This document shows positions 6,898 through 9,462 of a stretch of 12,723 nucleotides of DNA, in pieces. Every line of letters starts with the position of its first letter. Position 1 is the stretch's first letter. The notes beneath the pieces are model-generated. The model made no database searches. It was not told the origin of the DNA and worked only from the letters and a program-made list of their open reading frames with translations. The stretch covers positions 1 to 12,723 of the forward strand of contig PUMG01000354.1 of assembly GCA_003551265.1 (NCBI GenBank), read 5' to 3'. The position numbers were made by a program, and so were the translations under genes. The stretch is from Halovenus sp. (GTDB taxonomy: Archaea; Halobacteriota; Halobacteria; Halobacteriales; Haloarculaceae).

Positions 6898-6934
6898 CGA
6901 GCGCAGTGCACTCGTGCATAGGAATCTCTCGCCG

Positions 6935-7942
6935 ATGAAGCTACTCTGGCTCCGTCCATCGAAAGGTGACAACATCAGCGTCCGACGCGAGCGAATCGCC
7001 GAGGAGTTACGCGAGCGAGGCCATAAAGTCGACATCAGGGACGCTTCCGGACTCGACGCACTCGGAGCCGTTCGACAGGCTCTCACCGGGGACTACGACG
7101 TCATCGCGGGGAACGTCCGCATTGGGTTGTATCTTGGCTATCCCGTTTCGCGTCTGTTACGAACCCCGTTACTGGGTGACGTGAGCGACCCGATTTCGGA
7201 CATCGACAATTACCCAGCACCGCTGTTTCGGTTCTTCGAGTGGTACGAGTGGTTCGTTCTCAAACGTGCAGAGGCTGCGGTGTTCGTCTACGAATCGACC
7301 TACCAGGAGGCACTTGGACGCGGTATCGACCACGCGGTCAAACTCCCGAATGCAGTGAACTACGAACTGTTTGCAGAACCACAGCAGGAAACTATCGAAA
7401 CAGCCAGAGAGGCGCTGCAAGGAGACGGCGTTGATCCGGATAAACCAATCGCCATATACATCGGCGTGTTCTCCCGGCGCTACTGCATTGACGCGATTCT
7501 CGAGACCGCGAAACATGCACCGGAGTGGCAGTTCGTATTCCTCGGCGAAGGTGAACTCGAAGAGCGAGTTCAGCAGACAGCACACGAACGCGAGAACGTG
7601 TTCTTTCCGGGAGCGTTTCCGTATCGGTTGATGCCGGGCTTCCTGTCACTGGCCGATGTCGGTTTCTGTTTCAAAGATGCAGAGCAACCGCTGAAGCTGA
7701 AGGAGTACGGTGCTGCTGGTATCCCGACCATCGTGAGACCTGGTGAACTGTCTCGGTTCTACGACGAGGACCAGCTGGTGTTCGTTGACCCGGAACCAGC
7801 AGCGATTGCCGAGCGACTCGCGGAGTTGCGTGAGGACGAAGAGCTATACGACTCCTACGCCGAAGCAGGCCGGGCTATTGCGAGCGAGTGGAGTTGGGAA
7901 ACGATTGCTGACGGTTACGAGGAGTTGTTCAGAGGGATATGA
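6935..7942 (+). CDS. Glycosyltransferase, GT-B fold, GT4-like
   Basis: 335 aa from the ATG at 6935 (MKLLWLRPSKGDNISV). An in-frame GTG at 6914 is possible but falls close to the predicted transcription start. The N-terminal half (LLWLRPS, ERIAEELRERGHKVDI, YDVIAGNVRIGLYLGYP) fits the acceptor-binding Rossmann domain. A link region VYESTYQEALGRGID...LPNAVNYELF is typical of group 1 glycosyltransferases. The C-terminal donor-binding domain has AIYIGVFSRRYCIDAILETA, WQFVFLGEGELEERVQ, FFPGAFPYRLMPGFLSLADV and AEQPLKLKEYGAAGIPTIV, the last at the place of the EX7E motif. It would transfer a nucleotide-activated sugar to a lipid- or glycan-linked acceptor at the membrane; sugar and acceptor are unknown. 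Its TGA stop (7940-7942) touches the target duplication of the insertion sequence. Confidence 0.88.
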   Translation: MKLLWLRPSKGDNISVRRERIAEELRERGHKVDIRDASGLDALGAVRQALTGDYDVIAGNVRIGLYLGYPVSRLLRTPLLGDVSDPISDIDNYPAPLFRFFEWYEWFVLKRAEAAVFVYESTYQEALGRGIDHAVKLPNAVNYELFAEPQQETIETAREALQGDGVDPDKPIAIYIGVFSRRYCIDAILETAKHAPEWQFVFLGEGELEERVQQTAHERENVFFPGAFPYRLMPGFLSLADVGFCFKDAEQPLKLKEYGAAGIPTIVRPGELSRFYDEDQLVFVDPEPAAIAERLAELREDEELYDSYAEAGRAIASEWSWETIADGYEELFRGI

Positions 7943-7946
7943 TCCT
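7942..7946 (+). repeat. Target site duplication, left copy (ATCCT)
   Basis: ATCCT directly precedes the left end of the insertion sequence and is repeated exactly at 9394-9398. Its first base is the last base of the glycosyltransferase stop codon. A 5-bp duplication fits the ISH3 family. Confidence 0.9.
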
Positions 7947-7973
7947 CAGTACCTCACAAAAGTTCGGTACTGA
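7947..7973 (+). repeat. Left terminal inverted repeat of the ISH3-family element
   Basis: Begins CAGTACCTCACAAAAGTTC and ends GGTACTGA. It matches the reverse complement of the right end except for one extra A. Within the repeat, CAGTACC (7947-7953) and GGTACTG (7966-7972) are themselves inverted copies. Similarity to the right end continues inward, for example AACCGCAAA. Confidence 0.9.
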
Positions 7974-8021
7974 CAACCGTAACCGCAAACAAACGTCTCT
8001 CGAAGCTCGTTAGTTGAAGAA

Positions 8022-8064
8022 GTCCGCTTGCTGAAGTGTGACCAAACAACAGCAGCAAGCGGAC
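8022..8064 (+). promoter_or_regulatory. 12-bp perfect stem enclosing the transposase start codon
   Basis: GTCCGCTTGCTG (8022-8033) and CAGCAAGCGGAC (8053-8064) are exact reverse complements with a 19-nt loop. The GTG start codon (8038-8040) is in the loop, and the right arm is coding (Gln-Gln-Ala-Asp). In an mRNA that begins upstream, the start codon would sit in a stable hairpin. In a leaderless mRNA starting near 8036-8038, the left arm would be absent. Function is inferred; the repeat itself is certain. Confidence 0.7.
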
Positions 8065-9207
8065 AATGAAATCCACGGGGACCAGCTTCTTAACTTTCTC
8101 GTCAACGCGCTCACCGGAGCGTTTGGCATCAGCATCGCCGAAAATGGAGATATCGAGCCAGAGGACATCTACGAGGTTCTCGTCGGCGCGACCGCCGACG
8201 GAACCTCGATCTCAACGCTGTGTGAACGCAGCGAAGATTCCTACTCGGGCAACGATATCCTCTATCATCTCCGAACCAAGTTCGATCTTGAAACCGTCTC
8301 AGCTGTCGGGAACACGCTTCTCCAAGAACACACACTTGCGATGCTTCCTGAGCAGGTGGAAATTGTCGTGGATTTCCACCTGCGACCTTACTACGGTGAC
8401 AAAGACGAAACGGACGGCCTCTACTACAGCGAAGCCAAGCGAGGAACCACCGCGTTCCATGCCTACGCGACATTGTACGCCCGCGTGAAGAACAAACGCT
8501 ATACGCTGGCGGTGCGCCGTCTCACCGACGGCGACACCGCCAGTGAAGTCCTCGCAGAGTTCCTTGGACTCGTCGACGACTTCGACTTTGATGTCAAAGC
8601 AGTCTACGTCGACCGTGAATTCTACGATGGGAAGTGTCTGACACTGATGCAAGCACACAACCACGCCTACGTCATGCCAATCGTCAAGTGGGGAACGAAA
8701 ATCAAGACCGAACTGTCTGAGGGGTGGAGCCGTGAGATCGAACACGATCTGACGACGGAATTCGACGGCCACGAGTGGACCGTCGAATTCCCGGTCATGA
8801 TCGACTGTACGTACCAACAAGGCCGATACGACGAGCATGGCGTGGCGCGTCACGGCTACGCCGTCGACGCGCCGTTCATCAACACACCGCGTCAGGCTCG
8901 TCGCCACTACAGCAAACGGTTTGGAGTCGAAGCAACGTACCGTCTCTCAGAATCGTCGCTGATCTCGACGACAACACAAGATTCGACGAGACGACTGTTG
9001 TTCGTGGTGATTAGCTTGCTCATGCAGAACGTGTGGCGGTATCTGCACTGGGAGTATGTGGCGACGCCACGCCGAGGCGGGCGTCGCCTCTGGTGGTGGC
9101 CGTTCGAGGAGTTCATTCGAATGGTCACTCGTGCAGCATGGAATGCGCTTTCAGTGAGACGCGAGGTTCCAGCGAACAAGCCACCTGACGATCGGTTCAC
9201 CAGGTAG
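8038..9207 (+). CDS. ISH3-family transposase (DDE type)
   Basis: 389 aa, full length for the family. Catalyses cut-and-paste transposition of its element. It matches ISH3-family transposases in the N-terminal EIHGDQLLNFLVNAL, the DIYEVLVGATADGTSISTLC segment, and the RNase H-like core. The expected acidic triad is visible: Asp112 (IVVDFHLRPYYGD), Asp192 (YVDREFYD) and Glu298 in YSKRFGVEATYR, which is the Y-(2)-R-(3)-E signature of IS4-type transposases. The C-terminus (WRYLHWEYVATPRRGGRR..., NKPPDDRFTR) is also typical. The start is GTG at 8038, inside the loop of a 12-bp inverted repeat. A weak TATA-like TAGTTGAA (8011-8018) lies at the right distance for a leaderless transcript. No frameshift or internal stop is seen, so the enzyme may be active. 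Confidence 0.95.
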   Translation: MTKQQQQADNEIHGDQLLNFLVNALTGAFGISIAENGDIEPEDIYEVLVGATADGTSISTLCERSEDSYSGNDILYHLRTKFDLETVSAVGNTLLQEHTLAMLPEQVEIVVDFHLRPYYGDKDETDGLYYSEAKRGTTAFHAYATLYARVKNKRYTLAVRRLTDGDTASEVLAEFLGLVDDFDFDVKAVYVDREFYDGKCLTLMQAHNHAYVMPIVKWGTKIKTELSEGWSREIEHDLTTEFDGHEWTVEFPVMIDCTYQQGRYDEHGVARHGYAVDAPFINTPRQARRHYSKRFGVEATYRLSESSLISTTTQDSTRRLLFVVISLLMQNVWRYLHWEYVATPRRGGRRLWWWPFEEFIRMVTRAAWNALSVRREVPANKPPDDRFTR

Positions 9208-9252
9208 ATATCGACCGGGAACGCCTGACTTTGCAGTGGCAACGCTGTCGTC

Positions 9253-9275
9253 GTCGGCGGCGAGCAGCCGCCGAC
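9253..9275 (+). other. GC-rich stem-loop downstream of the transposase gene
   Basis: GTCGGCGGC (9253-9261), loop GAGCA, GCCGCCGAC (9267-9275): a perfect 9-bp stem 45 bases after the transposase stop. No T-run follows, so it is not a classical terminator; it could stabilise or end the transposase mRNA. A weaker hairpin, ACCAG/CTGGT, follows near 9289-9305. Confidence 0.5.
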
Positions 9276-9367
9276 TCGACACCATTCACCAGTTAGTGTC
9301 TGGTCGGTGGGATGCTGACCTCTCAGCTACGCCAGCAACAGCGTTCATTTGCGGTTGCGGTGCGGTA

Positions 9368-9393
9368 TCAGTACCGAACTTTGTGAGGTACTG
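9368..9393 (-). repeat. Right terminal inverted repeat of the ISH3-family element
   Basis: The plus strand reads TCAGTACCGAACTTTGTGAG and then GTACTG, matching the reverse complement of 7947-7973 with one base missing. It also contains an internal inverted pair: CAGTACC (9369-9375) and GGTACTG (9387-9393). Confidence 0.9.
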
Positions 9394-9398
9394 ATCCT
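9394..9398 (+). repeat. Target site duplication, right copy (ATCCT)
   Basis: Exact repeat of ATCCT at 7942-7946, immediately outside the right inverted repeat. Confidence 0.9.
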
Positions 9399-9440
9399 AC
9401 GTTATTTTCCGCGTTTCAACACCCCTAGCCGCGCAGTAGT

Positions 9441-9462
9441 CGAAAGACAGAAGTTATTTTAT
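9441..9462 (+). promoter_or_regulatory. BRE/TATA-like promoter of the ParB-like gene
   Basis: A purine-rich CGAAAGACAGAAG followed by the AT-rich TTATTTTAT (9454-9462) resembles an archaeal BRE plus TATA box. Transcription would start near 9485 and leave a leader of about 48 nt before the ATG at 9533. A second AT-rich string, CATAATATCC (9467-9476), is an alternative. The promoter is outside the insertion sequence, so the downstream genes probably keep their own transcription. Confidence 0.45.

Follow-up and report, generated by a model that had tools for sequence, protein, structure and literature searches.

A covarying palindrome over the transposase start codon of haloarchaeal ISH3 elements probably templates a short antisense hairpin RNA

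Main finding

The window, by which we mean the whole 12,723-nucleotide stretch of Halovenus DNA analysed here, contains an ISH3-family insertion sequence with a 43-nt palindrome positioned over its transposase start codon. In computational comparisons the stem of this palindrome covaries among relatives, its placement around the start codon follows a regular geometry, an archaeal promoter signal stands at its base on the opposite strand, and its layout recurs in other families of insertion sequences. We conclude that the palindrome's chief role is probably to specify a short antisense RNA, folded as a hairpin, that would control the transposase in the manner of RNA-OUT from IS10. An RNA of about 43-48 nt would be made from position 8064 on the minus strand and would fold into a hairpin. 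Through its loop and 5' half it could pair with the initial 27 nt of the transposase mRNA, taken to be leaderless, and this pairing would cover the start codon, so that the ribosome could not begin. A transcript entering from the upstream glycosyltransferase gene carries both arms and would fold as well. The same sequence could thus act both as an antisense RNA in trans and as a guard against read-through translation, since both are readings of one palindrome.

The insertion sequence and its palindrome

The features of the element and its surroundings are as follows.

6914 to 7942, plus strand: glycosyltransferase gene; its stop codon (7940-7942) adjoins the insertion sequence, and it is a possible source of read-through transcripts
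7942 to 7946: left copy of the target-site duplication ATCCT, which begins with the final stop-codon base of the glycosyltransferase ORF
7947 to 9393: ISH3-family insertion sequence, with ends CAGTACC...GGTACTG
8010 to 8015, plus strand: weak sense TATA-like string TTAGTT, 23-28 nt before the GTG
8022 to 8033, plus strand: left arm of the palindrome, GTCCGCTTGCTG, non-coding, upstream of the GTG; identified by mechanical inverted-repeat search and by covariation
8034 to 8052, plus strand: loop of 19 nt, containing the GTG start codon at 8038-8040
8038 to 9207, plus strand: ISH3-family transposase gene with GTG start, 389 aa
8053 to 8064, plus strand: right arm of the palindrome, CAGCAAGCGGAC, within transposase codons 6-9; identified by the same search and by covariation
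9394 to 9398: right target-site duplication, ATCCT

Elements of the ISH3 family have ends starting with CRGT and duplicate 4-5 bp of target (PMC2266710); the window element has CAGT ends and a 5-bp ATCCT duplication on both sides. The GTG at 8038, taken in the original prediction as the start of an ISH3-family transposase, does open a 389-aa ORF that matches family model NF033541 with an E value of 3e-104 and 348 bits (cut-off 225), and the window's genome has one match to this transposase. The insertion sequence lies directly behind the glycosyltransferase gene, and the two genes are on the same strand. A mechanical search likewise bore out the perfect 12-bp inverted repeat that had been described around the GTG, the arms being 100% complementary and 19 nt apart. 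The predicted stability of the hairpin is -25.0 kcal/mol in the window and averages -19.7 kcal/mol over 117 distinct types of relatives. When positions 7947-8137 were folded as a single sequence the z score was -3.86, and none of 200 shuffles folded equally well. Rfam found no family at gathering score within 7900-9450; its one sub-threshold match lies elsewhere in the element.

The window copy has several other structural features. Its left end (7946-7995) is about 45 bp longer than in most relatives and is largely mirrored at the right end (9342-9394), and its left tip forms a small palindrome, CAGTACC...GGTACTG. A GC-rich hairpin at about 9250-9280 lies just past the transposase stop, and a similar hairpin is found past the L017-type gene. 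More inverted repeats lie within the transposase gene, at 8173-8207, 8356-8379, 8505-8544, 8844-8873 and 9060-9088; several of these internal repeats have invariant third codon positions and a few pair-preserving co-changes. A subterminal site bound by the transposase was considered as an explanation of the arms and rejected: the arm motif is absent, at up to two mismatches, from the last 180 bp of the element, and the nearest two-mismatch match is at 9169.

Conservation of the hairpin in relatives

As controls for the stem score we took 264 ORFs in stretches of two haloarchaeal genomes, each allowed its best in-frame start within the first 60 codons. With the start codon in the loop the window scores 16. 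No control reached 14 (0/264) and one reached 13. Weaker members of the ISH3 family, with scores of 11-12, are not distinguishable singly, since a score of 11 is attained by 22 of the 264 controls; they are supported by comparison among relatives.

Relatives were collected as 182 loci (L002-L183) from named genomes, other genomes of the class and plasmids. With a minimum length of 250 aa, 174 transposase ORFs were obtained from 171 of these loci and the window. Of these ORFs 150, representing 118 distinct types, have an in-frame start codon within the loop of the best near-start stem, and their arms could be anchored. The start codon is GTG in 116 types and ATG in two, and stands 5-8 nt behind the 9-nt left core; the two 9-nt cores are 20, 21, 22, 23, 25 or 26 nt apart. 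Among haloarchaeal members of the W, L017, L079 and L117 groups we found no element with an intact 5' end that lacks the hairpin.

The 24 ORFs outside this set are mostly cut, broken or non-haloarchaeal. Seven have a 5' end that is cut or replaced (L054, L061, L066, L072, L114, L166, L181), four a broken frame though the hairpin is visible (L016, L063, L065, L096), and three are short with a hairpin (L071, L075, L160). Two have a hairpin that the script could not anchor (L097, L158), four are non-haloarchaeal (L115, L116, L119, L123), two have another layout (L121, L122), and two are second ORFs, in L006 (hairpin visible, with one mismatch) and L018 (a remote ORF). At 11 of the 182 loci no transposase ORF reached the 250-aa minimum: seven are 3' fragments (L067-L070, L073, L074, L077), L064 is missing its 5' end, and the hairpin is present in L060, L062 and L076.

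In non-haloarchaeal ISH3 relatives the hairpin is mostly absent. A remote ISH3 relative that does not belong to the class, L258, has an ATG in the loop of a 13-bp stem that scores 14, above all 264 controls. Another ISH3 subgroup (L121, L122, L204-L206) has a larger, two-part layout with an upstream 14-bp hairpin; in most of its members GTCCGGAT...ATCCGGAC flank the ATG, inner stem included.

Covariation of the stem

Covariation was counted over the nine pairs of the core on a transposase tree of the 118 types. Both partners of a pair changed on one branch in 19 in-register events, 16 of which led from one Watson-Crick pair to another, as against 2 co-change events in 72 off-register column pairs; only 0.015% of permutations of the column partners reached 19 events. 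Both sides of pair 4 changed on 10 branches, and in the diverged L079 group the core itself differs. It is therefore the pairing that is selected. Compensatory change in the two arms, which the original prediction had named as a check, is thus strongly evident.

A second test, on an alignment of 42 rows, agrees with the tree-based count in four of five measures. In register, 90.1% of its cells are paired, compared with 28-44% when one arm is slid against the other. Seven pairs changed on both sides, against 3.8 in shuffles, and the covariation score is 0.166 against 0.063; for paired cells, both-side changes and covariation score alike, none of 500 shuffles did as well. In the fifth measure, the count of further pair types, this alignment does not exceed shuffles (9 vs 8.3; 225/500). 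RNAalifold predicts the same stem.

The direction of decay of Watson-Crick pairs was examined for a bias that would mark the sense RNA. Pairs decayed to G-U in 6 events, to A-C in 8 and to other combinations in 4. By this comparison there is no sense-RNA bias; the stem favours neither strand.

An antisense promoter signal at the base of the stem

The opposite strand carries the following predicted features.

8095 to 8101, minus strand: BRE-like CGAGAAA, recognized by sequence and contributing to the promoter score
8090 to 8093, minus strand: TATA-like TTAA, 26-29 nt before the predicted antisense start
8016 to 8064, minus strand: predicted antisense hairpin RNA, with 5' end at 8064 and hairpin from 8064 to 8022
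8021 to 8016, minus strand: pyrimidine tract TTCTTC, the likely 3' end of the predicted RNA

Haloarchaeal promoters have been described by the motifs TTWT, CGAAA and WW (PMC4983044). We built a promoter matrix from 316 ORFs (138 in the final set) in stretches without listed ISH3 matches, and it converged on CGAAA..TTAT. The model is our own and its training starts were guessed; on it, the 99% point of random positions is 4.6. A minus-strand start at 8064 scores 8.1 in the window, a value reached by about 0.12% of random positions, and exceeds 98.7% of synonymous recodings (p 0.013). The mean antisense score at the stem base is 11.6 in the L017 group, the best of 320 positions, and 5.4 in the W group, the second of 320; in the L079 group the mean is 4.3, lies two nt inside the stem base and ranks about fifth of 320. 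Scores above 4.6 at the exact stem base occur in 27 of 27 L017 types, 42 of 60 W types and 4 of 30 L079 types, the last rising to 19 of 30 when the best of three positions is taken. The single L117 element is below the 99% point at the exact stem base, and Halobacterium ISH27-2 scores only 1.4-1.6 there. Synonymous recodings are beaten at p<0.05 by 25/27 (L017), 19/60 (W) and 11/30 (L079) elements, which are not independent of one another; the low counts in the W and L079 groups indicate that coding sequence explains part of the antisense signal.

A scan for codons that are kept although they are not preferred points to the same region. Leu18 is encoded by CTT in all 84 of the 84 W and L017 types that have leucine there, and CTT makes up 19% of leucine codons; the Leu, Asn and Phe codons beside it vary. 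Two bases of this invariant codon (8089-8091) are part of the antisense TTAA. In these groups just two further codons with A or T in third position are nearly invariant, namely CAA for Gln7, which is part of the right arm, and CGT for Arg271, which falls in an internal stem. In the L079 group, despite a different local sequence, Leu11 CTT and Lys17 AAA are each invariant (30/30) and stand at -7 to -9 and -25 to -27 of the same antisense start; four more near-invariant codons ending in A or T lie elsewhere in the L079 gene (E127, E244, D277, E284). The conserved codons fall approximately at the places of the haloarchaeal -10 WW element and TATA box.

Hairpin cores span 38-44 nt in the relatives, and a 27-bp duplex is predicted between the antisense RNA and the transposase mRNA. 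Behind the hairpin the antisense strand of relatives is T-rich, with 3.8-5.1 T in 12 positions against 2.0, a composition that would suit a haloarchaeal 3' end. Of the marks of an IS10-type system, the covarying stem at the start is present, and an opposite-strand promoter downstream of the start is found computationally, weakly so in part of the L079 group. From these signals we infer that the RNA would be produced from this element, with ends near those listed above, and that it would probably repress the transposase.

The sense strand and alternative explanations

Sense transcription was considered from the same geometry. Among the 87 distinct W and L017 types, 81 have the tip of the insertion sequence 45-47 bp ahead of the GTG; the six others were not matched by the pattern, and the window is among them, its distance of 91 bp being about 45 above the usual. 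The left core ends 7-8 nt before the GTG in these types, and a TTAG string is found at -28 to -25. Because the tip is so near the GTG, a BRE/TATA within such an element can serve only starts past the left arm. The proposal that the element's own promoter yields an mRNA without the left arm accordingly fits the geometry of these 81 types, and the argument is weaker for the window copy with its longer left end. A TATA-like string exists as had been predicted, in the form TTAGTT; its coordinates are those listed above and not 8011-8018. The sense promoter score at the GTG is low, at -1.7 in the window, with group means of -0.6, 3.0 and -2.0. According to fold predictions, 4% of the right arm is unpaired in read-through mRNA and 53% in leaderless mRNA. 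As the start codon lies in the loop, any blocking would be mainly steric.

A guard on the sense strand alone, in which read-through mRNA folds the start into a hairpin and leaderless mRNA from the element's own promoter remains free, was the centre of the original prediction. The covarying and stable stem agrees with it, as do the placement of an inside promoter that excludes the left arm, the difference between the two folds and the position of an upstream gene that ends at the insertion sequence. Against it, G-U intermediates are not in excess over A-C, the sense promoter is weak, and a sense guard accounts neither for the promoter signal on the opposite strand at the base of the stem nor for the invariance of codon 18 or the published antisense RNAs of about 45 nt considered below. 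The emphasis on the sense strand is therefore not sustained, and we regard a guard as the sole function as unlikely. As a second function of the same palindrome a read-through guard is plausible, and possible alongside the antisense role, from which sequence does not separate it.

Two other explanations appear less probable still. The palindrome might act in DNA, as two half-sites for the transposase or a repressor in an autoregulating promoter. Palindromic operators covary too, decay to G-U and to A-C is about equal, and the left arm is placed between the TATA-like string and the start. The spacing of the cores, however, varies from 20 to 26 nt, which is more than half a helical turn, and a loop therefore fits better than a two-site protein operator; unrelated families with other transposases and other arm sequences also share the layout. 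We consider such an operator very improbable. Alternatively, the stem might be a by-product of coding constraint, or of a transposase gene generally rich in hairpins. The right arm is indeed coding and other stems exist in the gene, yet the left arm is non-coding and tracks the right one, and in the W and L017 groups 12 co-changes preserved pairing in the start-codon stem, as against 3 in the next best stems. No comparable hairpin was found in three cyanobacterial loci, L119 and seven related loci (scores 4.0-8.0); one more such locus, L241, reaches 11.0. Taken with the covariation, these comparisons make a by-product scarcely credible. The antisense hairpin RNA thus remains the reading we prefer.

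Start-codon hairpins in other haloarchaeal insertion sequences

The plasmid pNRC100 was searched for the same layout by testing 15 annotated transposase genes in 150 kb, along with 102 control genes. The set excludes two further copies (ISH3B, ISH27-3) and a short ISH7A ORF, which has no hairpin. The start codon lies in a predicted hairpin loop in ISH28 and ISH11 (both IS5), in ISH10 (IS66) and in five ISH8 variants (IS4), the placement in ISH8 assuming an in-frame GTG start 30 nt upstream of the annotated ATG. A strict joint test (promoter score at least 4.6, dG at most -12) was passed by 3 of the 15 genes (ISH3B, ISH28 and ISH8E) and by none of the 102 controls. The best control has a combined score of 13.3, which only ISH28, ISH3B, the three ISH27 copies and ISH8C surpass. 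ISH11, ISH10 and the other ISH8 copies are within the best-control range, and ISH7 and ISH4 are below it. The case of ISH10 is only suggestive, and because it lies within the control range IS66 was withdrawn from the families counted.

We then sampled ISH28-like and ISH8-like elements by searching 49 genomes for each kind and taking up to 30 loci of each; the denominators include some rows that are truncated or have a wrong start in the alignment. A hairpin (dG at most -12) is found in 22 of 27 distinct ISH28-like IS5 elements, and the antisense promoter exceeds the random 95% point in 22 of these 22 and the 99% point in 16. Among ISH8-like IS4 elements 10 of 17 have the hairpin, with promoters above the 95% point in 9 and above the 99% point in 4. 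Promoter and fold were picked jointly in both samples, so that the fair yardstick for these counts is the 0/102 of the pNRC100 controls. Stem sequences differ between and within the two families. The start-codon hairpin layout recurs in unrelated IS5 and IS4 elements.

Two further observations concern these families. The ISH8 transposase may begin at the GTG upstream of the annotated ATG, within the palindrome loop (L264 14308-15582 and other copies), and a corrected ISH8 start codon is suggested. The window's own genome contains an ISH28-like IS5 element (L311, G000:C186:12999-13817) whose antisense score of 11.3 is the highest of its sample.

Comparison with known systems

The description of antisense RNAs in vesicles of Haloferax volcanii is reportedly the work of Mills and colleagues. 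Several published data sets bear on the regulation of haloarchaeal transposases. The vesicles contain 21 antisense RNAs, with a mean length of 45.5 nt, over the start codons of ISH3-, ISH5-, ISH8-, ISH9- and ISH11-type transposases, and these RNAs appear to share sequence and structure (PMC10927574). The predicted length of our antisense RNA agrees with that mean, the comparison covering length and position. ISH3 targets are included among them, and the available text of that paper gives neither covariation of a palindrome nor a promoter. In Halobacterium, 58 of 846 antisense RNAs lie over transposase genes, 10 of them over 5' ends (PMC6523106); the mechanism of such RNAs at transposase 5' ends is not worked out in the accessible parts of that catalogue. 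Of seven genes whose translation is repressed in stationary phase, three encode ISH3/ISH27 transposases, with transcript ratios of 1.0-1.5 (PMC3225822). In an ISH3 transcript, Ribo-seq reads pile up at the 5' end, and a processing site and binding of SmAP1 are seen as well; deletion of SmAP1 in Halobacterium lowers ISH3 transposition, and Halobacterium transposases are transcribed with protein hardly detected (PMC10134880). A search of freely available full-text literature found no prior description of the covarying palindrome or of its antisense promoter.

More tentatively, and with appreciably less confidence than in the antisense RNA itself, we suggest that the palindrome may be a two-way device: an antisense hairpin RNA of about 45 nt, with its own promoter, acting in trans, together with a guard in cis. 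Such a device would have arisen independently in at least three unrelated haloarchaeal families (ISH3, IS5 and IS4) and would exploit leaderless translation, and export of the RNA in vesicles might silence transposons in neighbouring cells.

The nearest bacterial parallels are with IS10. RNA-OUT of IS10 is hairpin-shaped and has the stronger promoter, and in IS10 fold-back inhibition an inverted repeat near the start folds read-through mRNA. As with RNA-OUT, the predicted ISH3 RNA would be a short antisense RNA from within the transposase gene, lying over the start and complementary to the 5' end of the mRNA. RNA-OUT is 69 nt long, with its first 35 nt complementary to RNA-IN, and it blocks ribosome binding (PMC5006887). 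The ISH3 RNA would be shorter, at about 45 nt, with promoters of the archaeal BRE/TATA kind and an expected leaderless GTG start. IS10 and ISH3 belong to different families, and the likeness claimed is functional only. The inverted repeat near the ISH3 start could fold read-through mRNA as in fold-back inhibition; here, unlike in IS10, the start codon is in the loop, and a guard would separate leaderless from leadered mRNA. In Pseudomonas putida, the antisense sRNA Asr9 of ISPpu9 is likewise directed at a structured transposase 5' region, which differs in having a long 5' UTR with a ribosome-binding site, and Asr9 helps expression (PMC8450116). As Asr9 activates, an antisense RNA need not repress.

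The covarying palindrome and the opposite-strand promoter signal together offer a concrete, testable mechanism for transposase antisense RNAs, one evidently under selection, and sequence alone predicts which elements carry it. Such a mechanism would give archaea a widespread equivalent of IS10 control, in a form suited to leaderless mRNA.
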